From: Streptomyces sp. DT2A-34
GTDB taxonomy: Bacteria > Actinomycetota > Actinomycetes > Streptomycetales > Streptomycetaceae
Direction: 5' to 3'
DNA: 64,000 nt
NCBI RefSeq assembly: GCF_030499515.1
Contig: NZ_JASTWJ010000001.1
Span: forward strand, 2,391,001-2,455,000
The translations under genes were made by a program, and so were the position numbers. Of this stretch, positions 6,211 through 35,054 are shown piece after piece; the stretch's first letter is position 1, and each line of letters opens with the position of its first letter. The notes under the pieces are model-generated. The model did not search any database and was not told the DNA's origin. It worked only from the letters and a program-made list of their open reading frames with translations.

Positions 6211-6405
6211 TCAGCGCTTCTCCCCCGGAACGTTCATGACGGCGCACACCACACGCCACACGTCCTTGGCCTCCCAGCCGGCGTCCAGCGCCTCGTGCAC
6301 CGTCCGCCCGCCGAGGTCCGCCATCACATGGTCGCGCGCGAAGGTGTCGGCGTATCCCTGACCGAAGTGATCCGCCATCCGCTCCCAGAAGACCGTCAAC
6401 CGCAT
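6211..6405 (-). CDS. DUF3046 family protein
   Basis: 64 residues starting M-R-L-T-V-F-W-E-R-M, the invariant opening of DUF3046. Members are small, cytoplasmic and uncharacterised, and sit next to recA across actinobacteria. The ATG at 6405 has GGAGCGGA just upstream. That upstream sequence is not ancestral: the 29-bp stretch covering the first codons is repeated at 35026-35054, and a genomic island has been inserted between this gene and its original 5' flank. The coding sequence is intact but its promoter must now come from the island end. Confidence 0.85.
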   Translation of the reverse strand: MRLTVFWERMADHFGQGYADTFARDHVMADLGGRTVHEALDAGWEAKDVWRVVCAVMNVPGEKR

Positions 6406-6406
6406 G
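6378..6406 (+). repeat. left copy of 29-bp direct repeat (att site of island)
   Basis: 29 bases beginning TCCGCTCCCAGAAGACC and ending CAACCGCATG are repeated without mismatch at 35026-35054 in the same orientation. The repeat covers codons 1-9 of the DUF3046 gene plus one upstream base. A remnant tyrosine integrase gene begins 63 bp inside this copy, the usual arrangement of a site-specifically integrated element. Confidence 0.85.
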
Positions 6407-6468
6407 AATTCCGCTCCATACCCGCAATGACCTGCACGTTTCCTGCCCCTCACACCCCCGCATGACCG

Positions 6469-6750
6469 TCAGGGGGTTTCCAGGGAGTTCGCCTCCCCGC
6501 TGAACCAAGCATCCATGGCGGCGCGACCTCGCGTGCCTGCGTCGGGCATGAAGTGCGTGTATGTACGCAGAGTAAAGCCAGGGTCGGCGTGCCCAAGCCA
6601 GCGGGCGAGGGAGACGATCGACTCGCCGGCTTCGAGCTGGACGCCGGCACAGGTGTGGCGCAGGGCATGGAAGCCGAGCTCGCGCGACGGCTCCGTCCTG
6701 GGGTTATCAGGCTTCCTCGCCCGAAAATCCTGCCACACGTACACCGACAC
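6469..6750 (-). pseudogene. tyrosine-recombinase integrase, C-terminal remnant
   Basis: About 90 residues matching only the C-terminal catalytic half of phage-type integrases: H-A-L-R-H-T (the H-x-x-R pair), then L-G-H for the third position, and T-Y-T-H-F carrying the nucleophilic Tyr. The N-terminal arm-binding and SAM-like domains and the first catalytic Arg are missing; upstream sequence at 6751-6850 is unrelated and more AT-rich. It is therefore not active. Its place 63 bp inside the left direct repeat identifies it as the integrase that once catalysed island insertion. Confidence 0.8.
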
Positions 6751-6850
6751 AACCCACTATGTCTTTTTCGAAGGCAGCCACTCAAACGATCTCCTTCAAA
6801 AGGATATACAGACACCTCTGGAGGCTCTTGGATTGGGCGGGTCCACACCT

Positions 6851-7060
6851 GTGACCGAACACGCGACAATTTGGCAATTGCTGGCACCTTCGCAGCTAGC
6901 CGAGCTGCTCGCAGTGTCGGACATGACGCTGCGCAACTGGCGGAATTACGGCAAGGGCCCGGCTTACATCAAGCTCGACGGCGGCGCCGTCCGCTATCCG
7001 ATGCGAGACGTACGCCTGGCTCGATAAGCAGCGCAGTGCCTCCGTCCGCTTGCATGCACA
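6851..7060 (+). pseudogene. excisionase-like helix-turn-helix protein, frameshifted
   Basis: GTG at 6851 opens a 58-residue frame with L-A-P-S-Q-L-A-E-L-L-A-V-S and T-L-R-N-W-R-N-Y-G-K-G-P, the pattern of the HTH_17/AlpA family whose members include Xis. A normal member ends with a short strand and Y/A-W-L-D. Here the frame stops at 7027, but the next frame at the same place reads Y-A-W-L-D-K-Q-R-S, so a one-base indel near 7010 has shortened it. It would have controlled excision of the island with the neighbouring integrase, though it is on the opposite strand. Confidence 0.65.
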
Positions 7061-7173
7061 CCGCGCTCACGAAACGCGCCGGAGCGGCCTGAACCCCCTG
7101 TCCTGTTCCGATGGGAACACGACAGGGAACACCGCTCACGCCGATGGAGTCTGGATGGCGAACCAAGTCCAAT

Positions 7174-7210
7174 GGTCGGGTGGCGGGGCCTGGCTCCCCG
7201 CCACCCGACC
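7174..7210. terminator. perfect 15-bp hairpin
   Basis: GGTCGGGTGGCGGGG (7174-7188) and CCCCGCCACCCGACC (7196-7210) pair completely around a 7-base loop. No T-run follows on either strand. It follows the broken excisionase gene and could end its transcript. The stretch 7061-7430 around it otherwise shows no recognisable gene. Confidence 0.5.
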
Positions 7211-7646
7211 GCCCAATGAACCTAGGGGAGTCGAACCCGAAATCAATCACGAATCATGGCTTCTCGAAGAGAAGTACACTCCCCGCTGATTCCTGGATTG
7301 ACGCTCTTTTTTCACAGTACGTGCTGAAGCAAATCACCGTGAGGGCTCCAGAGGTCCCACAACCGAGTCAGCACAACAGCCGCATCGTAGGGTCGGGCGC
7401 CTTGAACTCCGCGTGCGCGGAGCTCCCATGGGCACGTGATCTCGGCCGTCATGCGGGCTGACCTCTACGTCCGAGCCGGTCGCCCGCACCTGGAACGGTC
7501 GGCCGTCGACTCGCCCCCCATCGTCGATGACGCATCCGCGGCCATCCTGCTGCGGAGCAGGGCGGGGAGGGCGACGACGAACCACTCGGTGCGGAAACGG
7601 TCATCGCCGGGCCCACGCACCATGAGCGGCGTGGACCAGCGGATAA

Positions 7647-8499: not shown

Positions 8500-8709
8500 T
8501 AAGAAGCGCGGCGAGGGCTGCAAACAGGTCCTCTGTGCCCGGCTCGGCGTTGGACGTACTCGGATCCAGTTCCCTCAACGGGGCTCGAGCGCGGGGAACG
8601 CCGACCGGCCACCGCGCTGGACGGCCTGAGTCGACCGGTGCGGTGAGATGCCGCAGACTCCTGTATGAGGGTCTGCGTATCGGCGCGGGCCGCGGAGAGG
8701 GTGACCGGC

Positions 8710-9792
8710 GTGCTTGAGGTCCCGCTCTGGCTGTGGGGAGCGTTCGCCGCGACGGTGGTGGTGTCGCTGGCGGTCGACTTGCTGGCCCACCGCACCGCGC
8801 ACGTCATCGGTTTCAAGGAAGCTGCCGCCTGGAGCGGGCTCTGGGTGGGTCTCGCTCTGGTTTTCGCCGGCGTCGTCTTCCTCGTCCTCGGTACAACAGC
8901 CGGCACCGAGTACACCACCGCATGGCTGCTGGAGAAGAGCCTGTCGGTGGACAACCTCTTCGTCTTCGCGGTGATCTTCGCCTACTTCAAGGTGCCCCGC
9001 GCCTACCAACACCGTGTGCTGTTCTTCGGCGTGATGGGTGCCCTGATCTTCCGCGGGATCTTCCTCTCCCTCGGCGTCGCCGTCGTCAGCCGCTTCACCG
9101 CGGTGCTGTTCGCCTTCGCCGCGGTCCTCTTCTACAGCACCTACAAGCTCCTCAAGGGCGACGAGGAGACGTTCGACCCCGGCAAGAGCTTCGCCCTGCG
9201 GCTGCTCCGCAAGGTCGTCCCCGTGCGGGACGAGTACGCGGGCATGAAGTTCTTCGTCAAGGAGGCCGGCAAGCGCGTGGCCACCCCGCTCCTCGCGGTG
9301 GTGGCCGCTATTGAGGCCGCGGACCTGATCTTCGCGGTCGACAGTGTGCCGGCCGTCCTGGCTGTCAGCGACGACGCCTTCATCGTCTACACAAGCAACG
9401 CGTTCGCGATCCTGGGCCTGCGCGCCCTGTACTTCATGCTGGCGGGGCTACTGGACCGCTTCCACTACCTCAACAGGGGCCTCGCGATCATCCTGGCCTT
9501 CATCGGCATCAAGCTCATCCTCCAGGCATCCCACAAGCTGATCAGTCCCGACATCCCGGAAATCCCCTCACCGATCAGCCTCGCGGTCATCGTCGTCGTC
9601 CTGGCCGCCTCCGTCGTACTCAGCCTGCTGCGCCCCGTCCCGATCCCAGTTGCCCCCGCCGCTGAGGAGGAGCAACCAACCCCGCGACCAGACACGGTTG
9701 CCAGTAACCCACAGCCCGCCAGCGACCCGCAGGCCGAGCCGGCTCAGCGAGACGATCCACCCGACGGGCACGCTGACCACGCCGCACCTTGA
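8710..9792 (+). CDS. TerC/Alx family integral membrane protein
   Basis: 360 residues from GTG at 8710, preceded by GGAGAGGG; a longer frame from 8665 lacks a good site. Nine or so hydrophobic helices are visible. The family signature A-I-E-A-A-D-L-I-F-A-V-D-S-V-P-A-V-L is complete, as is E-K-S-L-S-V-D-N-L-F-V-F near the N-terminus, with the acidic residues that line the metal path. TerC relatives act in Mn2+ export, tellurite resistance and metallation of exported enzymes. The last ~45 residues are a Pro/Asp-rich disordered tail. It is the first intact gene of the island. Confidence 0.9.
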   Translation: MLEVPLWLWGAFAATVVVSLAVDLLAHRTAHVIGFKEAAAWSGLWVGLALVFAGVVFLVLGTTAGTEYTTAWLLEKSLSVDNLFVFAVIFAYFKVPRAYQHRVLFFGVMGALIFRGIFLSLGVAVVSRFTAVLFAFAAVLFYSTYKLLKGDEETFDPGKSFALRLLRKVVPVRDEYAGMKFFVKEAGKRVATPLLAVVAAIEAADLIFAVDSVPAVLAVSDDAFIVYTSNAFAILGLRALYFMLAGLLDRFHYLNRGLAIILAFIGIKLILQASHKLISPDIPEIPSPISLAVIVVVLAASVVLSLLRPVPIPVAPAAEEEQPTPRPDTVASNPQPASDPQAEPAQRDDPPDGHADHAAP

Positions 9793-9843
9793 CGAAGTGA
9801 GCAGACCATCCCTTTTCTCACACAAACGGCCTATTGTTAAAGA

Positions 9844-10041
9844 ATGAGCAAAGCCAAGCAAAAGACCCCGCAAGGGACGCTTGCATGCCCGGTCTGCAAG
9901 CACTCCTTGGACATGACCATCAAGAAGCGGCACAAGACGCTCGGGATCTTTGTGCCCGTGTGGGGCCCTGGCCCATGCCGCAACCCTGACTGCCCCGAGT
10001 ATCTGGAGGAGCCGGAGTACAAAAGCCCGCCAAAGCACTGA
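9844..10041 (+). CDS. small zinc-ribbon-like protein
   Basis: 65 residues starting M-S-K-A-K-Q-K. Two Cys pairs, C-P-V-C at residues 15-18 and C-x4-C in the P-C-R-N-P-D-C-P-E-Y segment, could hold one Zn2+. Lysine content and a modest GC level differ from the neighbours and fit a phage or plasmid origin. No function is known. Confidence 0.6.
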   Translation: MSKAKQKTPQGTLACPVCKHSLDMTIKKRHKTLGIFVPVWGPGPCRNPDCPEYLEEPEYKSPPKH

Positions 10042-10162
10042 AGCATTCCGCCCAGAACCTACGTGGATCGACGCTCATGAATGAACGCACCACAGCGAAG
10101 CAGAGGCGCACAGTGACGGCGGCAGCAGACCACGACGTCCCTGCGCGGCCTCTGGACTGCAC

Positions 10163-11065
10163 ATGATGTCAGCGTCGTCGACCGCGACTGCCGAGGCTGG
10201 GGAACGTGCCGTTTCGCCGGTCAGTTCACATGACGAGTGGGATCCGCTGGAGGAGATCGTCGTCGGTCGCCTCGACGGCGCGACGATCCCTTCCAGCCAT
10301 CCGGTTGTGACCTGCAACGTTCCACCATTGGACGGGGCGGTTGCCGGGGCTGGTAGGCGGCTTCAAGTATCCGCGCGTGCTGATCGAGCGGGCACAGCAC
10401 GAACTCGAACAGTTCGTTGATCTCCTGCGATCCCTCGGCGTCGCGGTCCGGCGCCCCGACATGGTCGACCACAGGCAGCGCTTCGGTACCCCGCACTGGT
10501 CGTCGCGCGGTTTCTGCAACACCTGTCCGCGCGACAGCATGCTCGTGATCGGCGAAGAGGTCATCGAGACCCCGATGGCATGGCCGTGCCGGTACTTCGA
10601 GACTCACTCCTATCGCCCGATCCTCAAGGACTACTTCCGGCGCGGCGCGCGCTGGACAGCGGCACCGAAACCGGAGCTCACCGACGCCCTGTTCGAGCGA
10701 GGTTTCCGTGCGCCCGAACCCGGCGAGCCCGTGCGCTACATCCTCACCGAGTTCGAGCTAGTGTTCGACGCGGCGGACTTCGTGCGCGCGGATCCTGGTT
10801 GCTCCCGAGCCCGATCCGATCGACGACCGCCTGCCGAGCGTCACCTCGATGTGCGGAAAGCGGCTCAGCATGAACGTGCTGATGGTGGACGAGAAGAGGG
10901 TGATCGCGGAACGCCACCACACCGGCATGCTGCGCGCGCTCGAGCAGCGGGGGCTTCGAGCCGATCCCGTGCGACCTGCTGCACTACGCGCCGTTCGGTG
11001 GCTCGTTCCACTGCGCGACGCTCGACATCCGGCGTCGCGGCACTCTTGAGTCGCACTTCGACTGA
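10163..11065 (+). pseudogene. amidinotransferase (StrB-like) gene, multiply frameshifted
   Basis: Pieces in three frames line up with glycine/inosamine-phosphate amidinotransferases. Frame one holds H-D-E-W-D-P-L-E-E-I-V-V-G-R; the second holds V-R-R-P-D, C-P-R-D and I-E-T-P-M-A through E-L-V-F-D-A-A-D-F; the third has L-S-M-N-V-L-M-V-D-E-K; and the end G-G-S-F-H-C-A-T-L-D-I-R-R returns to another frame with the active-site Cys. Around 100 residues, including the catalytic His region, are missing after the F-D-A-A-D piece. These enzymes move an amidino group from arginine in creatine or streptomycin-type pathways. No other aminocyclitol genes are near, so this is an orphan relic. Confidence 0.75.
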
Positions 11066-11079
11066 TCGGCCCGCCGGCC

Positions 11080-11439: not shown

Positions 11440-11464
11440 GGCCGACTCCCGGTGGCGGCCGCTC

Positions 11465-12617: not shown

Positions 12618-13199
12618 ATGCAGCCCCTCATCGACAACGCCCGCATGTTCGGACAGCGCCCTGAGGAGTTCGCCGGCCTCGCCAAAGGCCAGTCGCCCGA
12701 GGTCCTGTTCATCACCTGCGCCGACTCACGGGTCGTCCCGGCCCTGATCACCGGCGCCCGCCCCGGCGAGCTCTTCGAGCTGCGCACCGCGGGCAACATC
12801 GTCCCGCCGTACGCCTTGGAGCACCCCACCAGCGAGGCGGCCACCATCGAGTACGCCGTGGAGGTCCTCGGCGTCAAGGACATCGTGGTCTGCGGCCACT
12901 CCCACTGCGGCGCCGTGGGCGCCGTGGTGCGCGGCGACGATCTCGACGCCGTGCCGGCTGTGCGGGACTGGCTCGCGCACGCCGCCGACGAGCCCAAGTG
13001 CTCCGACAAGGCCGATCCCACGGTCGCCGAGGCCGTGCAGAACCACGTCCTGACGCAGCTGCTGCGGCTGCGCTCCTACCCCTGCATCGACAAGCGCCTG
13101 CAGGCGGACCAACTCCGGCTGCACGGCTGGTACTACGAGGTGCACACCGGGGCCGTGCGCGAACACCGCGTGGAGACCGACACGTTCGAGGCGCTGTGA
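12618..13199 (+). CDS. beta-carbonic anhydrase
   Basis: 193 residues from ATG at 12618 with AGGAGG upstream. Zn2+ ligands are clear: C-A-D-S-R (Cys and the Asp-Arg dyad) and H-S-H-C-G-A-V (His and Cys). It interconverts CO2 and bicarbonate in the cytoplasm. The gene stops where the SulP gene begins, so substrate and transporter are cotranscribed. It is about 70% identical by eye to the carbonic anhydrase at 25083-25661, which is also paired with a SulP gene. Confidence 0.93.
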   Translation: MQPLIDNARMFGQRPEEFAGLAKGQSPEVLFITCADSRVVPALITGARPGELFELRTAGNIVPPYALEHPTSEAATIEYAVEVLGVKDIVVCGHSHCGAVGAVVRGDDLDAVPAVRDWLAHAADEPKCSDKADPTVAEAVQNHVLTQLLRLRSYPCIDKRLQADQLRLHGWYYEVHTGAVREHRVETDTFEAL

Positions 13200-13210
13200 G
13201 GGGGCTGACT

Positions 13211-14692
13211 GTGCTGTCGAAGTTCCCTTACCTGCGGCAGGACTTCGCCGCCTCCATCGTCGTCTTCCTGGTCGCCGTGCCGCTGTGCGTCGGCGTGGCG
13301 GTCGCCTCCGGCGTCCCCGCGGAGCTGGGCCTGATCACCGGCATCGTCGGCGGCCTGATCACCGGGCTCATGCCCGGCAGCAGTCTGCAGGTGTCCGGCC
13401 CGGCCGCGGGCCTGACCGTGCTGGTCTTCGAGGCGGTCAGCGAGTTCGGAGTGGCCGCGCTCGGCGTGATCGTGCTGATCGCCGGGCTGCTCCAGCTCGC
13501 CATGGGCTTCCTCCGGATCGGCCGCTGGTTCAGGGCGATATCCGTCGCCGTCGTGGAGGGCATGCTCTGCGGCATCGGTCTGGTGATCATCGCCGGGCAG
13601 ATTTACGCGGCGGCGGGCCTGAAGGCTCCGGATACAGGCATCGGCAAGATCGTGGGCCTGCCCGGTGCGTTCGCCGACGCGCTCGGCAGCACCGAGGCGC
13701 TGACCTCGCTCGCGATCGGCGCGGGCACCGTCGCCGTCATCGTGCTGTGGAAGAAGCTGCCGAAGAAGGCGCAGGCCGTGCCCGGCGCCCTCGCGGCGGT
13801 GATGCTGGCCACTCTCGCCTCGCTCGCCTTCAGCCTGCCGGTCGCCACGGTCGAGGTGGAGGGCCTGCTCGGCGTCATCCAGCCGCCCGGCGCGGACGCC
13901 TTCGGCGAACTCGCCGGCCCGGCCATCTGGGGCACGATCATCGCGTTCGCACTGATCGCCTCCGCCGAGTCGCTGTTCAGCGCGGCGGCCGTGGACCGGC
14001 TGCACGACGGCCCGCGCACGCAGTACGACAAGGAGATGATCGCCCAGGGCGCGGGCAACACGGTGTGCGGTCTGCTCGGCGCGCTGCCGATGACCGCGGT
14101 GATCGTGCGCAGCTCCGCCAACGTCAACGCGGGCGCGAAGACGAAGGCGTCACGGGTGCTGCACGGCGTGTGGCTGCTGCTGTTCGCCGCCGCGCTGCCC
14201 GCCGCGCTGGCGCTTATCCCGCTGCCCGCGCTCGCCGGCATCCTGGTGCACGCGGGCTGGAAGCTGATCCCGTTCCGCCAGGTCGCGGAGCTGTGGCGGG
14301 GTAACAAGGGTGAGGCGCTGATCCTCGTGGTCACGGCCGTGTCGATCGTCGTGGTGAACATGTTCGAGGGGGTGCTCATCGGTCTGGCCCTGGCGGTGAT
14401 CAAGACGGCCTGGGAGGCATCGCACCTGAAGACGGAGGTCATAGACAAGGGCGCCGGGCCGATCCAGGTGTACCTGTCGGGCAACGCGACGTTCCTGCGG
14501 CTGCCGAAGATACTCGACAGCCTGGAGGCGCTTCCGCAGGACCGGCCGATCGAGGTGGACCTGTCCGGGCTGTACCACCTCGACCACGCCTGCCGCACGG
14601 CCCTGGAGAACTGGGCGGAGCGGCACAGCGCACCCGACACCGACCCGGTGAAGGTCACGAACGCGGAGCCGGTGAAGGCCACGGAGCCGTAA
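13211..14692 (+). CDS. SulP family anion (probably bicarbonate) transporter
   Basis: 493 residues from GTG at 13211 (V-L-S-K-F-P), chosen because GAGGGGG at 13198-13204 is correctly spaced; an earlier GTG at 13196 overlaps the carbonic anhydrase stop. The SulP fold shows about 12-14 helices, the Q-V-S-G-P-A-A-G-L-T segment of TM3, and a C-terminal STAS-like region (residues ~420-480). SulP proteins exchange or cotransport sulfate, bicarbonate and other anions; close genetic pairing with carbonic anhydrase points to HCO3- or CO2-linked transport. A strong hairpin follows. Confidence 0.88.
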   Translation: MLSKFPYLRQDFAASIVVFLVAVPLCVGVAVASGVPAELGLITGIVGGLITGLMPGSSLQVSGPAAGLTVLVFEAVSEFGVAALGVIVLIAGLLQLAMGFLRIGRWFRAISVAVVEGMLCGIGLVIIAGQIYAAAGLKAPDTGIGKIVGLPGAFADALGSTEALTSLAIGAGTVAVIVLWKKLPKKAQAVPGALAAVMLATLASLAFSLPVATVEVEGLLGVIQPPGADAFGELAGPAIWGTIIAFALIASAESLFSAAAVDRLHDGPRTQYDKEMIAQGAGNTVCGLLGALPMTAVIVRSSANVNAGAKTKASRVLHGVWLLLFAAALPAALALIPLPALAGILVHAGWKLIPFRQVAELWRGNKGEALILVVTAVSIVVVNMFEGVLIGLALAVIKTAWEASHLKTEVIDKGAGPIQVYLSGNATFLRLPKILDSLEALPQDRPIEVDLSGLYHLDHACRTALENWAERHSAPDTDPVKVTNAEPVKATEP

Positions 14693-15007: not shown

Positions 15008-15658
15008 TCAGGCTGCCGGACCGGGGGCTGCTGCTTCTGTCGGCAGCCCGCGGGTGGTGACGAGTTCGGCGCTGCCGTCGGCCAGCCGGTAGGACAGGCC
15101 CACCACGGCCGTCTGACCGGCGGTGACCTGGTCGGCAAGGACACGGGAGCGGTCCAGCAGGAGGTCGACGGTCTGCCGTATGTGCTCGGCGATGATGTCG
15201 TCTTCCCGGGTGAGCCCGGCAGCGCGAGCGGCCAGGACACTGGGCGTGACCCGCTCGATGACGTCGCGTACGTAACCGGTGGTGCCCAGGCCGTCGGTCA
15301 GGGCGGCGCGGGTGGCGGCCACCGCGCCGCACGAGTCGTGGCCAAGTACCACGACCAGCGGGCAGTCCAGCACGCTCACGCCGTACTCGATGCTGCCCAG
15401 CACCTCCGGCCCCGCCACGTGGCCTGCGGTGCGGACCACAAACAGGTCACCCAGGCCCCGGTCGAAGATGATCTCGGCGGCCAGGCGAGAGTCGGAGCAG
15501 CCGAAGAGCACCGCGAAGGGACGCTGGCCCGGTGCGGTCTCGGCGCGGCGGGCCGCGTCCTGGTTCGGGTGCTGCGGCACGCCAGCGATGAATCGCTGGT
15601 TGCCGGCCAGCAGCAACTCGAAGGCTTGGGACGGGGTCAGTGCAGCGGCATCAGTCAT
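15008..15658 (-). CDS. beta-carbonic anhydrase, second type
   Basis: 216 residues from ATG at 15658. Ligand motifs G-C-S-D-S-R and G-H-D-S-C-G-A-V are intact. The N-terminus L-L-A-G-N-Q-R-F and the sequence overall differ strongly from the two SulP-linked enzymes, so it is a distinct subfamily and not a recent copy. It stands alone, converging on the SulP gene at 14692. The C-terminus A-A-A-P-G-P is disordered. Confidence 0.92.
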   Translation of the reverse strand: MTDAAALTPSQAFELLLAGNQRFIAGVPQHPNQDAARRAETAPGQRPFAVLFGCSDSRLAAEIIFDRGLGDLFVVRTAGHVAGPEVLGSIEYGVSVLDCPLVVVLGHDSCGAVAATRAALTDGLGTTGYVRDVIERVTPSVLAARAAGLTREDDIIAEHIRQTVDLLLDRSRVLADQVTAGQTAVVGLSYRLADGSAELVTTRGLPTEAAAPGPAA

Positions 15659-17406: not shown

Positions 17407-18420
17407 TCACCCTCTCGTAGGCCGACGCGAGGTTGTCGGCTGTGCCGCGGAGGGTCGGGGCCCGGCGGCGCGGCGGAGCCGGTTGGCGATCGCGAGTCCC
17501 AGCCCCTCCTCCACCGGCAAGGACGCGACGATGAGGTCGCACCCCCGCTGGTCGAGCTCGCGCAGGAACCCGTACAGGCCGCGCGCGTAGGCGGCCATCG
17601 AACCGGGGACCGCCACCACGGCGTGCACCTTGACCGGAGCGTCGGCGAAGGAGGGCGGAAGAAAGACGCCCACCTGGTGCCCGAGCTCCTGCGCGAGTTC
17701 CGCTTCGGCGACGACCTTCTCGGGCTCGACGAGGACGACCCGTGCACACGGCGCGTAGTGGGACGGATGCTGGCCCGGCACTCGAACGCGGCTCGTCGAA
17801 TGGACCGCAAGCGGGCACCCCAGCACCGCTTCGAGGTCCTCGCGCGTCACCCCGCCAGGCCGAAGGACGCTCGGGATCTCGCCCGTGGCGTCGACGATGG
17901 TCGACTCGACGCCGACCTGGCAGGGGCCGCCGTCCAGCACGAAGTCGACGGCATCACCGAGCTCCGCACGGACGTGGTTCGCAGTGGTGGGGCTGACCGA
18001 GCCGAAGCGGTTGGCTGACGGGGCCGCGACACCGCCGCCGAAGGCCGCCAGAAGCGCGAGTGCGACGGGGTGGTCGGGCACCCGCACGGCCACCGTCTCC
18101 AGTCCACCAGTCGCTTCGAGGGGAACCCTGCGACCGCGCCGCAGGACCAGCGTGAGTGGCCCCGGCCAAAAGCGTTCGGCCAACAGGCACGCCGTCGCGG
18201 GCACGTCCTCAACCCAGTCACCCAGGTGGTCCGCGCCGCCGAGGTGGACGATCAGCGGGTGGGAGGGCGGGCGCCCCTTGACCTGGAAGACGCGCGCGAC
18301 AGCGGCGGAGTCCTCGGCGTTGGCGCCCAGACCGTAGACGGTTTCGGTAGGGAAGGCCACCAGCCCTCCGGCGCGCAGCACACCGGCCGCCTTCTCGATG
18401 TCAGTGGTTCTTGCCTTCAC
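17407..18420 (-). CDS. YrdC/Sua5-type L-threonylcarbamoyladenylate synthase
   Basis: 337 residues from GTG at 18420, which has GAGAGG upstream; an ATG at 18459 would add 13. The YrdC domain fills residues 1-200: V-A-F-P-T-E-T-V-Y-G-L-G-A-N, K-G-R-P-P-S-H-P-L, F-W-P-G-P-L-T and S-A-N-R-F-G bind ATP and Thr. A Sua5 C-terminal domain follows after the linker at P-G-Q-H-P-S-H-Y-A-P. The enzyme makes threonylcarbamoyl-AMP for the t6A modification of tRNAs. As part of an island it is probably a second copy of a housekeeping enzyme, perhaps resistant to or serving a modified pathway. Confidence 0.88.
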   Translation of the reverse strand: MKARTTDIEKAAGVLRAGGLVAFPTETVYGLGANAEDSAAVARVFQVKGRPPSHPLIVHLGGADHLGDWVEDVPATACLLAERFWPGPLTLVLRRGRRVPLEATGGLETVAVRVPDHPVALALLAAFGGGVAAPSANRFGSVSPTTANHVRAELGDAVDFVLDGGPCQVGVESTIVDATGEIPSVLRPGGVTREDLEAVLGCPLAVHSTSRVRVPGQHPSHYAPCARVVLVEPEKVVAEAELAQELGHQVGVFLPPSFADAPVKVHAVVAVPGSMAAYARGLYGFLRELDQRGCDLIVASLPVEEGLGLAIANRLRRAAGPRPSAAQPTTSRRPTRG

Positions 18421-18671
18421 CCTCGCAATCCTCTCACTGCTCCGCTCTCCGGATTCCATGGTCTCGTCTGCGCATAACGACGGCCCAAGACCGACGGCAC
18501 CGCGTGAGCGAAGGCAGCGGTACCGGGGAACACCGCCGGGCCTCGCCTGGTGCGACCAGACGAGTGACCTCGGCGGGCGCCGCCGGTGACGGCTTGAAAC
18601 AGGGGCGGACCTTGCCCCCTCGACAACGGGTTTCACCATGAGGAGACAGCACCCCTGCTCAGGCCATAGGA

Positions 18672-18812
18672 GGCGACCGGCTGCGCACTGCCGTCCGCCA
18701 GCCGGCAGGACATACTCGTCACGGCGAGGCGGCCGTGGCCACCCGCTCGGCCAGGACGCGGGAGCGGTCAGCCGCGATGGCCCCGCACGAGTCACAGCCC
18801 CGGCCCAGCCGA
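18672..18812 (-). pseudogene. carbonic anhydrase relic with internal deletion
   Basis: On the minus strand, C-D-S-C-G-A-I-A-A at about 18785-18812 corresponds to H-D-S-C-G-A-V-A-A of the enzyme at 15008-15658. It is followed almost directly by D-R-S-R-V-L-A-E-R-V and, in another frame, S-C-R-L-A-D-G-S-A. In the intact enzyme about 55 residues separate these pieces. This is the eroded remains of a duplicate of that second-type carbonic anhydrase. The rest of 18421-19102 has no gene. Confidence 0.6.
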
Positions 18813-23616: not shown

Positions 23617-25074
23617 TCAGGCGGCGGTCATGATGACCTTGGCCGACGCGGTGTCGGCCACTCCGTGCCGCTCGGCCCAGTTCTCCAGAGCCGTACGGCA
23701 GGCGTGGTCGAGGTGGTGCACCCGGGACAGGTCCAGCTCGACGGGGCGGTCCTGCGGGATCGCCTCCAGGGCGTCGAGGATCTTCGGCAGGCGGAGGAAG
23801 GTCGCGTTGCCGCTCAGGTGGGCCTGCACGGGGCCCGCGCCCTTGTCGACGATCTCCAGCTTGATGTGCGACGCCTCCCAGGCCGTCTTGACCACGGCGA
23901 GCCCGAGGCCGATCAGTACGCCCTCGAACATGCTGATCGCGACGATCGACACCGCGGTGACGACGAGGATCACGGCCTCGCCGCGGTGCCCGCGCCACAG
24001 GGCGACGAGCCCCTTCACCGGGATCAGCTTGAAGCCGGAGTACACCAGAACGGCCGCGAGCGCCGGGATGGGGATGACGCCCAGCGCGGCCGGGAGCAGC
24101 GCCGCGAACAGCAGGAGCCAGGCGCCGTGCATCACTCGGGAGGCCTTGGTGCGTGCCCCCGCCTGGACGTTGGCCGCGCTGCGCACGATCACCGCGGTCA
24201 TGGGCAGTGCGCCGAGCAGGCCGCAGACCGTGTTGCCGATGCCCTGGGCCATCAGCTCCTTGTCGTACTGCGTGCGCGGGCCGTCGTGCAGCCGGTCCAC
24301 GGCCGCCACGCTGAACAGCGACTCGGCGGACGCGATCAGGGTAAACGCCAGGACGGTGCTCACCACACCGACGGACGCCAGGTCCGCGAAGGCGGAGGGT
24401 GCGGGCGGCTGGATCACGGACACCAGCCCTTCCACCGTCACCTTGGTGACGGGGAGCGCGAAGGCCAGCGAGGCGACGGTGGCGAGCGCGACGGCCGCGA
24501 GCGGACCGGGCACGACGCGCACCTTCTTCGGCAGCTTCGGCCACAGCACCAGTACGGCGATGGTGCCCGCGCCCAGCAGCAGCGACGCCACGGCCGGGGC
24601 GGAGCCCAGCGAGTCGGCGAGCACCTCCGGCAGCCCGGCGATCTTGTCGATGCCGGACGACGGAGCCTTGCTCTGGGTCATCGCGTACAGCTGGCCGGCG
24701 ATGAGCACGAGGCCGATCCCCGCGAGCATGCCCTCGACCACGGCGACGGAGATGGCCCTGAACCAGCGCCCCCAGCGCAGGACCCCCATGCCGAGCTGGA
24801 GCAGGCCCGTGGCCAGCACGATCACGCCGAGCGTGGCGAGCCCGTGCGCGTGTACGGCCTCGAAGACCAGCACGGTCAGACCGGCGGCCGGGCCTGACAC
24901 CTGAAGGGCGCTGCCCGGCAGCAGGCCCGTGACAAGACCGCCGACGATGCCGGTGACGATGCCGAGTTCGGCCGGCACTCCGGAGGCGACGGCCACGCCG
25001 ACGCACAGCGGCAGGGCGACCAGGAACACGACGACGGAGGCCGCGAAGTCCTGCTTGAGATAAGCGGTGTTCAT
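23617..25074 (-). CDS. SulP family anion (probably bicarbonate) transporter, second copy
   Basis: 485 residues from ATG at 25074. It is colinear and closely similar to the SulP protein at 13211-14692 (same Q-V-S-G-P-A-A-G-L-T, D-R-L-H-D-G-P-R-T-Q-Y-D and S-G-N-A-T-F-L-R-L-P-K-I-L-D motifs) and has the same short STAS-like C-terminus. It begins 8 bp after the stop of the carbonic anhydrase gene at 25083, so the two are cotranscribed. The ordering carbonic anhydrase then SulP is identical in both copies, only the orientation is reversed. Confidence 0.88.
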   Translation of the reverse strand: MNTAYLKQDFAASVVVFLVALPLCVGVAVASGVPAELGIVTGIVGGLVTGLLPGSALQVSGPAAGLTVLVFEAVHAHGLATLGVIVLATGLLQLGMGVLRWGRWFRAISVAVVEGMLAGIGLVLIAGQLYAMTQSKAPSSGIDKIAGLPEVLADSLGSAPAVASLLLGAGTIAVLVLWPKLPKKVRVVPGPLAAVALATVASLAFALPVTKVTVEGLVSVIQPPAPSAFADLASVGVVSTVLAFTLIASAESLFSVAAVDRLHDGPRTQYDKELMAQGIGNTVCGLLGALPMTAVIVRSAANVQAGARTKASRVMHGAWLLLFAALLPAALGVIPIPALAAVLVYSGFKLIPVKGLVALWRGHRGEAVILVVTAVSIVAISMFEGVLIGLGLAVVKTAWEASHIKLEIVDKGAGPVQAHLSGNATFLRLPKILDALEAIPQDRPVELDLSRVHHLDHACRTALENWAERHGVADTASAKVIMTAA

Positions 25075-25082
25075 CGGATGCC

Positions 25083-25661
25083 TCACAGCGTCTCGAAGGA
25101 GTCGGATTCGGCCCGGTACACCAGCACGCCGCCGGTGTGGACCTCGTAGAACCAGGCGTGGACGCGCAGCCGTTCGTCCCGCAGGCGCGTCTCGACGCAC
25201 GGGTACGACACCAGCCGGAGCACCTGCCCCAGTACGTGGTGCTGGACCGCCTCGGCGACCTGCGGGTCGTCCGGCGCGCCGGACGGCAGTACGGCGGCGT
25301 GCCCGAGCCACTCGCGCACCGCCGGCACGGCCGACAGATCGTCGCCGCGTACCAGCGCGCCGACCGCGCCGCAGTGGGAGTGCCCGCAGACCACGATGTC
25401 GGAGACACCGAGCACCTTGACGGCGTACTCGATCGTCGCGGCCTCGGAGGTGGGACCCGCGTCGTAGGGCGGGACGATGTTCCCCGCCGTACGCAGCTCG
25501 AAGAGCTCACCGGGGCGGGCACCGGTGATGAGCGAGGGGATGACGCGTGAGTCGGAGCAGGTGATGAAGAGGGCGTACGGCGACTGCCCTGCGGCCAGTT
25601 CGCCCAGTTCGGCGCCCTGGGAGTGGGCGAAGGTCCGTGCGTGTGCGATGAGGGTTTTCAT
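25083..25661 (-). CDS. beta-carbonic anhydrase paired with second SulP
   Basis: 192 residues from ATG at 25661. Zn2+ ligands in I-T-C-S-D-S-R and G-H-S-H-C-G-A-V are intact, as is the I-E-Y-A-V-K-V-L-G-V helix. It is a close paralogue of the enzyme at 12618-13199. The product supplies or removes bicarbonate for the SulP transporter encoded immediately downstream. Confidence 0.93.
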   Translation of the reverse strand: MKTLIAHARTFAHSQGAELGELAAGQSPYALFITCSDSRVIPSLITGARPGELFELRTAGNIVPPYDAGPTSEAATIEYAVKVLGVSDIVVCGHSHCGAVGALVRGDDLSAVPAVREWLGHAAVLPSGAPDDPQVAEAVQHHVLGQVLRLVSYPCVETRLRDERLRVHAWFYEVHTGGVLVYRAESDSFETL

Positions 25662-25787: not shown

Positions 25788-27236
25788 CTAGTCGTCGTCG
25801 CCGTCGTCGCCCGACCACGGGCCGGTGATGGCGACGAGGATGCCGGGGTCCTGGATGTTGGCGAACAGCGTCTTTCCGTCCGCGGAGAAGGTGACACCGG
25901 CGAACTCGCTGTACTCCGGGGCCTCCGCGGTGCCGACGTTCAGCTCGTTGCGGGCGATGGGGTAGGTCTGGCCGTCGGCGGTGGCGCCGAACAGGTGCGA
26001 CACGCCCTCGCCGTCCTCGGCGATCACCAGGCCGCCGAACGGCGAGACGGTGATGTTGTCGGGGCCGTCGTAGGCACCGTCCTGGGAGACGTCGGTGTGG
26101 ACCGCGAGGAGCACCTTGAGGGTGATGGTGCCGGTGCGGGGGTCGTAGAACCACACCTGGCCGTCGTGCGGGGTGCCGGGGCTCTCGGTGCGGGCGTAGC
26201 TGGAGACGAAGTACGTGCCGCCGTCGCCCCACCACATGCCCTCCAGCTTGCGGGAGCGGGTGATCTCACCGGCCAGGAACTGCTTGCGCACGGAGGTGGT
26301 CACGGCGTCGCGGTCCGGGACCTTCACCCAGTCCACGCGGTAGACCGTGCCGACCTTCGTCGCGCGGGAGAGGTCGTCGACGTACTGCCCGGCGGCGTCG
26401 AAGCACTTCATCGCGTCCAGCACGCCCGCGTTGTCGGCCAGGGCCCGCAGCTTGCCCGGGCCGTGGGTGAAGCCGACCGGCGGGGTCCAGCGGTAGAGCA
26501 GGCCGTTGGGCTTGGAGGCGTCCTCGGTGAGGTACAGGTGGCCGCGGTTCTTGTCGACGACGACCGCCTCATGGGCGTACCGGCCCAGGGCCTTGATGGG
26601 CTTGGGGTCGAGGTTCGCCGCGCTGCCGTGCACGGGGTCGACCTCGAAGACGTACCCGTGGTCCTTGGTCATGCCGCCCACGCCGGCCTTGTCCTCGGTC
26701 TCCTCGCAGGTCAGCCACGTGCCCCACGGGGTGACGCCGCCGGCGCAGTTGGTGGAGGTGCCGGCGATGCCGACCCACTCGCGTACGGAGTCGTCGGACA
26801 CCTCGACGACGGTGCAGCCGCCGGCCGCCGCCGGGTCGTAGACCAGGCCGTCCAGGTGCGGGACGGGGTCGTCGGCCTCGCTCAGCGGGTCGTCGATCTC
26901 GTGGTTGTTCACCAGCAGGGTCACGTCGTCGTCATCGTCATCGTCGCCGCCGAGTGCGAAGGCACCGGTGCCGTCATGGTTGCTCGGGGTGGTCTGGCCG
27001 GACTCCAGGGTGGTGACGCCGGTGCGGGTCAGGATCCGGTAGGAGAAGCCCTCGGGCAGAGCGAGGATCCCCTTCGGGTCCGGGACCAGCGGACCGTAGC
27101 CGACGGCGCCGCCCGTCGCGGCCGTGTCGGCGACGGCGCCGGGCGCGGTGAGCAGCGCCTCCACACTGCCGATGAGCATGACCCCGGCGCCGGCCAGCGC
27201 CGATCGGCCCAGCAATTCCCTGCGGTTCAGCGGCAT
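25788..27236 (-). CDS. PhoX/DUF839 family phosphatase, Tat-exported
   Basis: 482 residues from ATG at 27236. The N-terminus L-N-R-R-E-L-L-G-R-S followed by a hydrophobic stretch is a twin-arginine signal, and mature protein begins near A-V-A-D-T. DUF839 signatures include L-L-V-N-N-H-E, G-T-W-L-T-C-E-E-T-E-D, G-R-Y-A-H-E-A-V-V-V-D and L-Y-L-T-E-D. PhoX enzymes are Ca2+/Fe-dependent and release phosphate from organic esters outside the cell. An unusual run of seven Asp before V-T-L-L-V-N-N lies close to the metal site. Three 11-bp PHO-box-like repeats lie upstream. Substrate specificity within DUF839 is not proven. Confidence 0.85.
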   Translation of the reverse strand: MPLNRRELLGRSALAGAGVMLIGSVEALLTAPGAVADTAATGGAVGYGPLVPDPKGILALPEGFSYRILTRTGVTTLESGQTTPSNHDGTGAFALGGDDDDDDDVTLLVNNHEIDDPLSEADDPVPHLDGLVYDPAAAGGCTVVEVSDDSVREWVGIAGTSTNCAGGVTPWGTWLTCEETEDKAGVGGMTKDHGYVFEVDPVHGSAANLDPKPIKALGRYAHEAVVVDKNRGHLYLTEDASKPNGLLYRWTPPVGFTHGPGKLRALADNAGVLDAMKCFDAAGQYVDDLSRATKVGTVYRVDWVKVPDRDAVTTSVRKQFLAGEITRSRKLEGMWWGDGGTYFVSSYARTESPGTPHDGQVWFYDPRTGTITLKVLLAVHTDVSQDGAYDGPDNITVSPFGGLVIAEDGEGVSHLFGATADGQTYPIARNELNVGTAEAPEYSEFAGVTFSADGKTLFANIQDPGILVAITGPWSGDDGDDD

Positions 27237-27322
27237 CTCGTCTCCCGGACGATCGGAGTGTGCGAAGCGGTGAGCGGTGCTCGCCGACTGAGGGGAGGTC
27301 GGCGCTCCGCCATGCTGGCCAG

Positions 27323-27355
27323 CCGGGAAGAACCTCAGCGGAAGCCAAGAAGAAG
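27323..27355 (-). promoter_or_regulatory. three 11-bp direct repeats resembling a PHO box
   Basis: Reading the minus strand: CTTCTTCTTGG, CTTCCGCTGAG, GTTCTTCCCGG, contiguous 11-mers sharing xTTC and a final GG or AG. Streptomyces PhoP binds runs of 11-bp units of form GTTCAYYYRGG. The match is partial, but location (87 bp before the phosphatase start) and periodicity fit. Confidence 0.4.
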
Positions 27356-27572
27356 TCATGAATGTGCAGTTCTCATGTTTCTCATCCGCGAGACATATGT
27401 CCGCCTCAGTGCCGACCGGGGCACGGAAGCGACGTCACGGTCAAGGTCTCCGTCGGACCACGGCCGAGAATCATGTCCATCGCGTCGATGAAGACCCGGC
27501 ACGGCTCATCGGCATTCCCAGGGGTGACCACGCCTGCCGCTGGACGGCTACCGTGGCAGCCGATCGAGCCGT

Positions 27573-29082: not shown

Positions 29083-29325
29083 CGTCGGCGATGACGCCGA
29101 ACCGCACTCGCCGAGGAGTGTGACAGCCGCGGCACCTGGGGCGCTGAAACACGTGGGCGCCGTCTGTCAGGCCGGCGCCGGTCCCCGTGCCTGCCCGCGC
29201 GGGGTGGCGTCGCGCCTCGTCGCGGCTTCTGTACGCTGGGCGCCTGTTTGCGCAATTGCGTGGATACCGGCAGATTCCAGGGCAGGCTGGCTGCCCATTT
29301 TGCCGGGCCGAAGGGGGATGTAGCC

Positions 29326-30567
29326 GTGCTGGTGGCGGATCGGTATCGCCTGGACACTCCGCTGGGACGGGGCGCGATGGGCGAGGTGTGGCGCGCCACC
29401 GACGAGATCCTGGGCCGGGACGTGGCCGTGAAGGTGCTGCGTACGGACGAAGCCGCGGAGACGGACGGCGAACGCTTCCGGCAGGAGGCGCAGACCGCGG
29501 CCCGGCTCAACCACCCCCACGTCGTCAGCATCTACGACTTCGGTTCCCACGACGGGCAGCTCTACCTGGTCATGGAACTGGTCGACGGCTGGAGCCTGGC
29601 CCAGGAACGGTCCCTACGCGGCGTCCTGAAGGCGCACGAGACGGCGCGGATCGGCGCCCAGATGGCCGCGGGCCTGGCCGCCGCGCACCGCCAGGGCGTG
29701 ATCCACCGCGACATCAAGCCCGCCAACGTAATGCTGACAGCCGACCGCGCCGTGAAGATCGCCGACTTCGGGATCGCCCGCTTCGCCGACGACGCCGCCT
29801 CCACGCTGACCGCCACCGGGGCGATCCTCGGCACGAGCGCCTACCTGGCGCCCGAGCGCGCCCTGGGCCGACCCGCCCAGCCCGCCTCGGACATGTACGC
29901 ACTGGGCTGCGTGCTGTACGAACTGCTCACCGGCCAGCCGCCGTTCACCGGCGCCACCGCCCTGTCCGTGGTCCAGCAGCATGTCGACGCCGCGCCCGTC
30001 CCGCCCTCCCGACTGCGCCCCGAGATACCCGGGCCGCTCGACGACTACATCATCAGTCTGCTGACGAAGGACCCGGCGCAACGGCCCACCGCCGACCAGG
30101 CCGCCGCCTGGCTGACGAACCCGCCGGAATACGCCCCCTCGGCTCCCCACGACGAGCGTGGCGCGGTCGCCATGCCGGTGGCACCGCCCCCGGCAAATAC
30201 CCCGCGCACCGAGGGCCTCCGCCCGGCCCGGCCGCGTCCTGGCAAGCGCTACGGGGCCTCGCCCAGAGCGCTGCTCGCCGTCGGCGGCGTCGCCTTGTTC
30301 GCCGTCTCGGCCGTCGTCGGGACGGCGCTGGCCCCGGGTGACGAGGGCGGCGGCTCGCCTGCCCCCACTGGCACCTCACCCGCCCGGTTCTCCTCACCAG
30401 CCGTCGAGCAACCCACCACAGCACCTCCGTCGCCCACAGCCACGCCCACCACGTCGTCAGCCACCCCCAGCTATGACGCGGAAAGGGCGCAGAAGGAGGC
30501 GGAAGCGCGGCGCAAGGCGGCCGAGAAGGATCGGAAGAAGGACCGGGAAGAAGAGGACGACGACTGA
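29326..30567 (+). CDS. Ser/Thr protein kinase with C-terminal transmembrane segment
   Basis: 413 residues from GTG at 29326, preceded by GGGGGA at correct spacing. Kinase domain at 8-270: G-R-G-A-M-G-E-V (P-loop), V-A-V-K-V-L (Lys), H-R-D-I-K-P-A-N-V (catalytic loop), D-F-G-I-A-R and the activation/P+1 segment G-T-S-A-Y-L-A-P-E. A Pro-rich linker leads to a single hydrophobic helix (L-L-A-V-G-G-V-A-L-F-A-V-S-A-V) and an outside region of Ser/Thr/Pro followed by an unusually charged K/E/R/D tail ending D-D-D. No PASTA domain is present. It follows the sigma-like gene. Confidence 0.9.
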   Translation: MLVADRYRLDTPLGRGAMGEVWRATDEILGRDVAVKVLRTDEAAETDGERFRQEAQTAARLNHPHVVSIYDFGSHDGQLYLVMELVDGWSLAQERSLRGVLKAHETARIGAQMAAGLAAAHRQGVIHRDIKPANVMLTADRAVKIADFGIARFADDAASTLTATGAILGTSAYLAPERALGRPAQPASDMYALGCVLYELLTGQPPFTGATALSVVQQHVDAAPVPPSRLRPEIPGPLDDYIISLLTKDPAQRPTADQAAAWLTNPPEYAPSAPHDERGAVAMPVAPPPANTPRTEGLRPARPRPGKRYGASPRALLAVGGVALFAVSAVVGTALAPGDEGGGSPAPTGTSPARFSSPAVEQPTTAPPSPTATPTTSSATPSYDAERAQKEAEARRKAAEKDRKKDREEEDDD

Positions 30568-31404: not shown

Positions 31405-31432
31405 CCCCCGGCGCAGCACGCTGTCCCACCCA

Positions 31433-31690: not shown

Positions 31691-31720
31691 GCACGGCGCA
31701 GGCTGGGAGGCCTCCTGTGC

Positions 31721-32773: not shown

Positions 32774-32859
32774 GACTCATGCCGCCACCGTAGGAGGCCA
32801 GGGGGCCGATCCGAGTGCGGCCTTTGCGGGCGGGTGGCTGTGTTCGGCCGGCGCGGCTC

Positions 32860-33456
32860 TCACGCCTGGCCCGCGCGTGGCGGCAAATCGGTGCCATCCG
32901 CCGGTTCGAGCCTGGCCGCCTCGAATTCCACCCGGACGTCGTCGGCCAGCCGCAGCGCGCCCAAGAACGCGGTGTAGGGCTTGATTCCCCAGGCGGACTG
33001 CGTGACCGTCGCCCAGCCGTGCAATGGCCCGGCGTCGCTTCCCTTGCCGTGCACCGTCACCGGGTGGGTGCGTCCCTTGATGGTGAGTTCCCCGGTGATC
33101 TCGAAGGAGAGCGGGGTTCCCGTGATGCGGGTGGAGCGGAAGGTGATCGTGGGATGCTCTGCGGTGTGCAGCAGGGCCTTGTCTGTCAGTGTCCGTTTGA
33201 TCTCGGCCCGGTCGGCGTCTGTGAGTGCTTTCAGTCCGCCGGCTCCTTCCCGGACCTCCAGCGAGTCCGTCTCTACCGTCACACTCACGGACGACCTGTC
33301 GGGGTCATCGACGGCCACGATGGCCTCCCCGGACCACTGGGTGGCTTCGATGGTGAGGTCGTGCCCCGCCCGGCGTCCCAGCCCGGCGCGGCCGGTCTTG
33401 ATCAAGAGGCGGCCTGTCGACGGCCCGAGTCGGTACGTTCCGTCGGTCAGCGTCAC
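32860..33456 (-). CDS. YceI family protein
   Basis: 198 residues from GTG at 33456 (V-T-L-T-D-G-T-Y-R-L-G-P); the frame continues upstream without conservation. The lipocalin-like YceI pattern is visible: G-R-L-L-I-K-T, G-H-D-L-T-I-E-A, V-E-T-D-S-L-E-V and the L-T-I-K-G-R-T-H-P-V repeat. No signal peptide is seen, so unlike E. coli YceI it is cytoplasmic. YceI folds bind polyisoprenoids or amides. The start is chosen by homology and length. Confidence 0.8.
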   Translation of the reverse strand: MTLTDGTYRLGPSTGRLLIKTGRAGLGRRAGHDLTIEATQWSGEAIVAVDDPDRSSVSVTVETDSLEVREGAGGLKALTDADRAEIKRTLTDKALLHTAEHPTITFRSTRITGTPLSFEITGELTIKGRTHPVTVHGKGSDAGPLHGWATVTQSAWGIKPYTAFLGALRLADDVRVEFEAARLEPADGTDLPPRAGQA

Positions 33457-33724
33457 AGTGCGAGGGTACGGGCGGGCCAGGCCGGGGCGGTCGACGATGT
33501 CCGGTCGGCGTGTCCCCATGACGCGAGGTGACGTCGCATCGGAGCCGGAGATCCGGATCGCGGTCGGTGCCGACAGGCACCGCGAGAAGCCGAAGGGGGG
33601 CGACGGGCCTGTACCCGTCACATGTGCCTGCCCATTCAGCGTCCCTGCCGCCGAGCGCGACATCGAGGGCATGGGGCGCCTCCCAGAGCGGGCGGGGTAC
33701 TCGGCCTACGGCCGGCTGGCCCAG

Positions 33725-34006
33725 ATGACGACGGTCCGCGATGTATTCAGTGAACAAGACCATGCCGGAGGCGATCATGCGGAACGCCGAAGAACCGGCC
33801 GTGACACCACGAGCGCCGACGGTACACAGGAGACCCACGACACCCTGGAGCACCGGGTGCGGAACCTGGAACAGCGCGTGGAGACGCTGACCGCGGCCGT
33901 ACGGGCCCTGGCCGAGGGCCTCGAACCGTCCCCGGGCAACGGGGCGGCCGACGGCGGCCGCGGTGCCCGCCTGGCCCACGAGATCCTGCTGTCCCGTGGC
34001 CTGTAG
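33725..34006 (+). CDS. hypothetical protein with short coiled coil
   Basis: 93 residues from ATG at 33725. After a charged, disordered N-terminus comes a heptad stretch, L-E-H-R-V-R-N-L-E-Q-R-V-E-T-L, then A-L-A-E-G-L. The end is R-L-A-H-E-I-L-L-S-R-G-L. Similar small proteins are widespread in Streptomyces. Start uncertain. Convergent with the NTPase relic. The region 33457-33724 has no gene. Confidence 0.45.
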   Translation: MTTVRDVFSEQDHAGGDHAERRRTGRDTTSADGTQETHDTLEHRVRNLEQRVETLTAAVRALAEGLEPSPGNGAADGGRGARLAHEILLSRGL

Positions 34007-34074
34007 ACAGGCAGGGCGGACGCAAGCGAGACATCATGGCGGGCTGCAGGCCATCGCCGAGCGAAGCGTTCCGG

Positions 34075-34960
34075 CCCCGCTACCCATAGCCGTTCCAGAT
34101 GCATGTCGATGCTCGGTCGTGCGAACAGCGCAGCGTCAGGGTCGGCCTGCAAACGATCGACCAGTGCTTCGTCGGATGAGCCGAACAAAGAGACGGCCAC
34201 CGCGTAATCAAAGAGAACATGGTGCGAAAACTCCACGGGCCCTGTTTCCGGGCCTCCGGGGAGACCGGGGCGACGCTTAAGAACGGCTCGTGACAGCAAG
34301 GTATCCAGCACCGAAGCGGCGGCCGTATCGCTACCTACGATGACCTGGGTGCTGAGCGCAAGACGCCGCCCCTCGACCGCCATCTCACAGAAACGGGTCA
34401 GCACCGCCACGCGTGAGAGACCGTCTGCCCCATCGCCGACTCTGTGTTGCCAATAGCGACGAAGGAGGTCCAGCCGGCTTCCCACCCGCCCGAGTTCCGT
34501 CACGCTCACGCCTTCCAGCAAGAGTTCGGCGGCAAGACGGAGGCGGAAGGGGTTACGCAACAGTGTCGCCACGCCAGATATTGACTGAGCCAGGAGGTCA
34601 GCCAGAGCTGTGAAGCCCACAACTACCTGGTCTAGGTCATCGTCCTCAAGATCCTCCAAAAGCACCGGAGCGGCTGCAAAGAGCTGACGCAACTGAGTCG
34701 AATGCTGCAGATCCCACGGCCGGATGGATGCGACCACCCGCCACTTCGGCAACCGCCGGCGAACCTCACTGATCCCCCATCGCCACAAGGCTGATTACGC
34801 ATCGCCCCGTGCTGCATCGACGGCGTCGATGACCAACAGCCCAGTGGACCCGAGCAACCACTGATCAAGGACGTCCCAGCAAGGGGTGCTGCAGGCCCAG
34901 CTCGGAATGCAGTTGCCCCAAGCTCTCGGCGGCGGGACAGGCCGGGACGCGTAGGGCTTT
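34075..34960 (-). pseudogene. large AAA/STAND-like NTPase fragment with stop and frameshift
   Basis: Minus strand from about 34960 reads S-L-G-Q-L-H-S-E-L-G-L, then (next frame) L-L-V-I-D-A-V-D-A-A-R-G-D-A as a Walker B with acidic pair, followed by an in-frame TAA at 34795-34797. Past it come W-R-V-V-A-S-I-R-P-W-D-L (sensor-1 like), P-F-R-L-R-L-A-A-E-L-L and F-S-H-H-V-L-F-D-Y-A-V-A. Such arrangements occur in large NTPases of antiphage and stress systems. The Walker A region and everything beyond the middle are missing. Confidence 0.65.
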
Positions 34961-35025
34961 CGATTCCGCGCAACAGTGCAGGTCACAGCGCCGACTCACG
35001 TATATCGCCGCAGGTCGGCAAGTCT

Positions 35026-35054
35026 TCCGCTCCCAGAAGACCGTCAACCGCATG
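35026..35054 (+). repeat. right copy of 29-bp direct repeat (att site)
   Basis: Identical to 6378-6406. On the minus strand it encodes M-R-L-T-V-F-W-E-R followed by unrelated sequence, so it is the detached first part of a DUF3046 gene. Sequence after 35054 (plus strand) is the likely original upstream region and promoter of that gene. Confidence 0.85.

Follow-up and report, generated by a model that had tools for sequence, protein, structure and literature searches.

Integrative and conjugative elements (ICEs) of the SXT/R391 type insert in the 5′ end of prfC. Surveys of ICEs describe mostly tRNA sites, with some protein genes, and report frequent decay (PMC9513070, PMC3218068); what remains of such elements in Streptomyces is truncated integrases and cargo flanked by direct repeats (PMC9513070). 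We have analysed a 64,000-nucleotide stretch of the genome of Streptomyces sp. DT2A-34 (hereafter the window), in which a 28.6-kb interval begins at the start of the gene for a DUF3046 protein. This interval is very probably a decayed ICE that was integrated by a tyrosine integrase at a 29-bp bacterial attachment site (attB) in DUF3046.

The SXT/R391 ICEs resemble this locus in their 5′-end insertion and in the supply of a new 5′ end by the element, but they are other elements in other hosts, and the likeness meant is one of mode. The type IV secretion system (T4SS)-type ICEs of Streptomyces RLB1-8 and RLB3-5 are similar in having a coupling protein and a relaxase, which are found here in two related elements; they reside, however, at tRNA-Thr (PMC9513070), whereas the present site is the 5′ end of DUF3046 and the window copy has neither gene. 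PAISt of S. turgidiscabies is also a Streptomyces island recombined site-specifically into a protein-coding gene, but it recombines at an 8-bp palindrome that marks the bacA 3′ end (PMC4057263), compared to 29 bp at a 5′ end including the start codon in the present case. The pSAM2-type actinomycete ICEs (AICEs) share the tyrosine integrase, and the vast majority of those with such an integrase use tRNA 3′ ends (PMC3218068); they carry an FtsK/TraB translocase, to which no match was observed in the window interval or in the related G067 element. DUF3046 has been treated in the context of the phage shock response (PMC11237479). ICEs that insert into the 5′ end of protein genes are a known kind of element. 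DUF3046 itself was not met as an integration site in the texts of the two ICE surveys, supplementary site tables aside, and no report of such an attachment site was found in the literature searched, which is consistent with a preliminary description of this DNA.

The insertion at DUF3046 and its relatives

The 29-bp sequences at 6378–6406 and 35026–35054 are identical and in direct orientation, as the preliminary description had stated, and no third copy exists in the genome (≤3 mismatches, whole genome). By our own estimate, ∼1e-7 exact 29-bp repeat pairs are expected by chance in 30 kb at the composition of the window. The left copy consists of one base, the first nine codons and one further base of the DUF3046 gene (6211–6405, minus strand; 64 aa; Pfam DUF3046, 101.4 bits), so the start codon is part of it. 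The right copy is an orphan start codon followed by the same nine codons, and the duplication described earlier is exact. Beyond it are the native upstream region of DUF3046 (35055–35133, minus strand), now directed into the island, and the host gene that adjoins DUF3046 in empty relatives (35134–36078, plus strand). The two copies are the attL and attR cores of one element family.

When the window flanks were joined in script, a single BLAST match ran across the joint, with one core copy, in 27 of 30 loci of relatives, which had been obtained with the core pattern. This is the outcome that had been predicted for the empty site. Among the 30 loci nearest by left flank (own included), 7 were occupied and 23 empty by the criterion applied, two of the latter (L134 and L151) having a far flank matched over 138 and 153 bp only. 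The empty sites include four hosts that are 93–94% identical to the window in the left flank. The core pattern was present in 373 of 392 genomes of the genus, own included (≤3 mismatches), and five of those carried two copies (own, G003, G097, G151 and G302).

The pattern of the element's left end was observed in 13 of the 392 genomes, own included, and DUF3046 starts at the joint in all 13. DUF3046 serves as the integration site in other genomes, too. The integrase of these carriers was full length in one (G067), partial in eight and undetected in four. A more diverged end was observed in G061, an additional carrier, so that at least 14 of the 392 genomes are occupied. When named genomes were searched with the integrase remnant of the window, 19 loci were obtained; the core was found beside the match in 10, and DUF3046 was there in 9 of these 10. 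At the more distant loci L052 and L053, no DUF3046 was observed beside the integrase match, and the L049 sequence stops short of the position concerned.

Intact integrases next to DUF3046, which the preliminary description proposed to look for, do exist. Full-length integrases of 417 aa, 91% identical to each other, were found at DUF3046 in S. viridochromogenes and S. guryensis, and in these two as well as in G067 the full-length gene lies 62 bp from the core. Among the best 120 of 2893 matches listed in a protein search, the next full-length integrase had 72% identity (S. celluloflavus), followed by others at ≤55%; three partial proteins had 91–98%. The G067 element spans 83 kb of a single contig and has both int and the excisionase gene, xis. 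It is 97% (96.7%) identical to the window over 394 bp across attL, 93.4% over the xis stretch and 85% over a TerC stretch. The empty sites, the element ends at the same site and the integrase relatives together support the earlier reading of the interval as an inserted island.

The window copy itself is a dead remnant. Its tyrosine integrase is reduced to the C-terminal 74 residues (6469–6694, minus strand), with the frame ending at 6469, 62 bp inside the left core; the remnant reported near one copy is thus confirmed, at 62 rather than 63 bp. It scored 26.9 bits against the Pfam Phage_integrase profile, just below the cut-off of 27.1, and by tblastn it was 92% identical to residues 344–417 of a full-length relative. 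About 1.16 kb present in the relatives is absent from the window, the joint being at 6693/6694, and the deletion presumably takes the first catalytic arginine with it. The excisionase-like HTH_17 (helix-turn-helix) gene described beside the integrase is indeed present, divergent from int (∼6833–7079, plus strand), with a frameshift that splits its tblastn match over two frames; its S. guryensis counterpart is an HTH_17 protein with 39.4 bits. Small helix-turn-helix excisionases are also carried by AICEs. A further stretch, 7087–7238, is 94% identical to the G067 element. No coupling protein or relaxase was found in the interval, both PF12696 matches of the own genome being located elsewhere, and the own genome had no match to the relaxase profiles PF03432 or PF08751. 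Since int is truncated, xis is frameshifted and neither a coupling protein nor a relaxase was found, the island would be fixed in place unless a related integrase acts in trans.

Transfer genes were observed on the contigs that carry the ends of the S. viridochromogenes and S. guryensis elements. A TraG/VirD4 coupling protein (PF12696) is located 53 kb from attL in the former (G393:C229:303337) and 26.6 kb from attL in the latter (G394:C33:71179). A TrwC relaxase (PF08751), having an open frame of ∼1490 residues, is located 89 kb from attL (G393:C229:339627) and 23 kb from attR (G394:C25:50798), respectively. The relaxase profile PF03432 had no match on the element-end contigs of the two. As to a VirB4-type ATPase, L083:6190–7626, beside the S. 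guryensis coupling protein, gave a weak AAA_10 match (30.4 bits against a cut-off of 27.5), with no stretch passing alone, and a TraG P-loop score of 21.3 bits, below its cut-off. Because a coupling protein and a TrwC relaxase are present in two relatives, we read the parent family as T4SS-type ICEs, some members of which would have lost transfer; transfer is predicted from these genes.

Element ends and right joints

The left end of the element now forms the 5′ region of DUF3046 (6407–6468; compared in 17 occupied sites). The 60 bp preceding DUF3046 were 78–98% like the references in these 17 sites, compared to a median of 58 and a maximum of 72 for random island 60-mers. Motif comparison placed a putative arm-type motif, TGCAGGTCA, at 6428–6436, and a second one, TGACCTGCA, at 34977–34985 in the right end (34932–35025), which is common to the S. 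viridochromogenes, S. guryensis and G097 elements (all motifs are given in the DUF3046 orientation). The left and right arm motifs are inverted about the core. A 20-bp motif, AACTCCCTGGAAACCCCCTG, lies at 6470–6489, its sole copy in the window at ≤3 mismatches; the same three elements have it at both ends, and some other elements have it at the left end. The arm motifs and the 20-bp motif look like arm-type integrase sites. In genome G146, in which the DUF3046 site is empty, left arm, core and right arm are contiguous at another place (L063, 10040–10420) with a degenerate integrase, an arrangement that is attP-like, as that of an attP should be.

The right ends were less often recognizable. 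Only 6 of 17 (own, G097, L051, L055, S. viridochromogenes and S. guryensis) were above the random maximum of 70, and G302 was at 67. The occupied sites had themselves been located through the left end or the adjacent integrase, and the kept left end is for this reason partly a matter of ascertainment. The left-end and right-end patterns occurred in 13 and 3 of the 392 genomes, respectively, one of the three being G146 with its locus away from DUF3046; these counts are not a fair test, because fewer examples went into the right-end pattern.

Ten of the 17 right joints keep the 29-bp core (≤5 mismatches) and seven keep only its first 13–19 bases (G104, G243, G333, G062, G067, G327 and L054, placed from BLAST ends). 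None stops elsewhere in the core, and the break points are tightly clustered. The shortened joints would fit strand exchange near bases 13–16, integrase deletions at look-alike sites, or other right ends. At the right end of G067 (L102, 6674–6994), an open reading frame (ORF) judged by eye to be transposase-like runs into the core, which is reduced to 19 bases. Near-complete losses of the element were seen at L051 (8223–8588, ∼0.34 kb) and L103 (2563–2784, ∼0.2 kb), with the left arm still before DUF3046.

Cargo and alternative origins of the interval

A Pfam scan covered 24 ORFs of the interval. Near end-to-end matches were obtained for TerC, three carbonic anhydrases, two SulP transporters, Sua5, a response regulator, a sensor kinase and a protein kinase. 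Int and xis, by contrast, are disrupted, and a BenE match spans only the last third of its profile. The description of the interval as full of broken genes was therefore overstated, since these are a minority of the scanned ORFs. The TerC gene and the DNA following it (8625–11076, plus strand) are common to the right part of the S. viridochromogenes element at 84–87% identity, and the TerC part also to G067 (85%). A carbonic anhydrase and SulP pair (12618–14692, plus strand) is followed by another carbonic anhydrase (15008–15658, minus), a Sua5-like threonylcarbamoyl-AMP synthase (17407–18795, minus), the response regulator and sensor kinase (20743–23345, minus), a second SulP and carbonic anhydrase pair (23617–25661, minus), a PhoX phosphatase (25788–27359, minus) and the protein kinase (29248–30567, plus).

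The second SulP–carbonic anhydrase cluster is inverted with respect to the first, and the two form a large imperfect inverted pair, 73–84% alike. A tandem 11-bp repeat, GGGGGGGATGC, occupies 19841–19897. ARAGORN reported a tRNA-Gly (CCC) of odd length at 19579–19669; it had no Rfam match at gathering score and was not taken as an attachment site. In a near-identity plasmid search with 7030–32000, none of the 118 matching records reached 80% coverage. A phage origin is unsupported, because no relative was confirmed among the 13 pattern-matching stretches that the integrase remnant retrieved from viral contigs.

Several observations weigh against the reading of the interval as a decayed ICE. The far flank had no match in three of the 30 loci of the joining experiment (L003, L011 and L029). 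In S. viridochromogenes and S. guryensis alike, the element is divided between two contigs, and the transfer genes are for this reason tied to one element end only. The G067 element has int and xis but contains no match to TraG, TrwC or FtsK/TraB, and its right core is truncated; conjugative ability is therefore not uniform in the family. Neither a promoter nor a terminator was detected in simple scans of the two element ends. Occupancy is clustered on the host tree (7 changes, compared to a mean of 16.0 after shuffling, with 0 of 500 shuffles as low). Lastly, the interval was compared with the three relatives that have whole integrases, over the complete G067 element and over ∼50 kb and ∼55 kb of the elements of S. 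viridochromogenes and S. guryensis, respectively. Only ∼3.2 kb of the 28.6 kb matched these stretches, so that most of the cargo (the SulP, carbonic anhydrase, PhoX, kinase and Sua5 types) may have arrived otherwise than with the ICE.

The last of these points bears on the alternative that survives best. The interval could be a composite island, in which the ICE ends are original and much of the 28.6 kb, including the inverted SulP–carbonic anhydrase clusters, Sua5 and PhoX, was added later by other insertions or by recombination between the fixed ends. The small extent of the matching DNA would agree with this, as would the variable cargo of the carriers (G003, for example, has Kdp, CitMHS and antiporter genes) and the occurrence of SulP–carbonic anhydrase pairs on Streptomyces plasmids at 76–86% identity. 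On the other hand, the TerC gene and the DNA following it are common to two related elements, and the theme of the cargo recurs, with TerD in G003 and, by eye, SulP-like and TerD-like proteins in G067. We consider a composite origin somewhat unlikely, though a serious possibility.

It is improbable that the element is an AICE of the pSAM2 type, transferring double-stranded DNA by TraB/FtsK, rather than a T4SS-type ICE. AICEs were the commonest conjugative elements in one Streptomyces population (PMC9513070), and a single FtsK_SpoIIIE (PF01580) match 74 kb inside the S. viridochromogenes attL (G393:C229:324229) raises the odds of this assignment slightly. However, FtsK_SpoIIIE (PF01580) had no match in the window interval, nor was one seen in the G067 element, and the two relatives carry TraG/VirD4 and the TrwC relaxase.

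An ancestral insertion that the empty relatives have lost is very improbable. The clustering of the occupied sites on the host tree is in its favour, and part of the distribution is therefore inheritance. On a left-flank tree of 66 rows, 18 of them occupied, occupancy requires at least 7 changes, 4 of which are forced by starred branches. (This tree left out L012, L043, L003, L011, L028 and L029, and loci from the respective genomes took the place of the window row, L041, L045, L050, L098 and L104.) An earlier tree with few near relatives gave 4 changes; it was drawn without L043, L003, L011, L028 and L029, which had no 500-bp match. Against loss from an ancestral state stand the empty sites (27 of 30 joined loci and 23 of the 30 nearest), close relatives of the window among them, and the disagreement between element and host distances. 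The window and G067 are 98.4% identical in the element left end and 92.1% in the host flank, while G252 and G104 are 90.7% and 97.2% identical, respectively. This comparison comprised 78 pairs of 13 carriers, G061, G003 and G243 being dropped as their left end was unaligned over 120 bp. Because host and element distances disagree, repeated acquisition is indicated, and inheritance and new insertion both seem to be at work.

Finally, a chance or local duplication bordering ordinary variable chromosome, to which the metabolic, transport and stress genes of the nameable cargo and a base composition only mildly unlike the flanks could point, is refuted by the empty sites and the integrase relatives at the site: the exact 29-bp repeat stands precisely where the relatives join, and 13 of 392 genomes carry this element end at one and the same codon, with full-length integrases there.

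Control of DUF3046 and implications

In the empty-site consensus (26 of 30 loci, with L003, L008, L011 and L029 left out), CAGGGGCGGGATACTGG stands right before the DUF3046 start codon. The consensus of 18 occupied left ends has TGCAGGTCA..GCGGGTATGGAGCGGAAT in its place, and int reads toward DUF3046 from 62 bp upstream. As judged from the sequence, the insertion separates DUF3046 from its native upstream region, which appears to remain at attR facing inward. In our reading, a tyrosine integrase recombined attP with the conserved 29-bp attB, which comprises the start codon and the nine initial codons of DUF3046. DUF3046 would then receive from the element half of attL a new start region with a GGAG-type ribosome site, and int in the same direction 62 bp upstream, and the native upstream region would be left at attR, directed into the element. 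In the window, a deletion stripped int to its C-terminal 74 residues and, with xis frameshifted, the island would be fixed. A change in the control of DUF3046 by the insertion may be expected from this arrangement.

On the left flank, the genes for an AI-2E transporter, recA and recX are on the same strand as DUF3046; on the right, the gene at 35134 is followed by an Lhr helicase gene (Pfam). In S. coelicolor, recA is SCO5769, recX is SCO5770 and an ATP-dependent DNA helicase is SCO5761 (PMC6637917), and from this gene order the AI-2E gene should be SCO5768 and DUF3046 SCO5767. The 500 bp upstream of SCO5768 (Psco5768) was the strongest of eight evaluated constitutive promoters (PMC4625935), with a strength that is strain-dependent and undetected in some strains (PMC10890193). 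By gene order, this 500-bp fragment would span DUF3046 and the insertion site. It is conceivable, if doubtful, that the element acts on a conserved gene cluster of actinobacteria as a control switch: it would detach DUF3046 and the AI-2E gene from a promoter region of strong constitutive activity, set both behind int and turn that region inward, and selection would keep the left arm as the new 5′ region once the remainder has decayed.

The analysis defines an attachment site present in nearly every sampled genome of the genus and an integrase family that uses the start of DUF3046. Site and integrase together allow these ICEs, intact or as remnants, to be recognized and their limits to be set, and the DUF3046 start is a candidate integration site for Streptomyces vectors. 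The strains also form a natural series, from the empty site through the element with a whole integrase to a ∼0.2-kb scar (G327), of a host gene whose upstream region has been exchanged by a mobile element.

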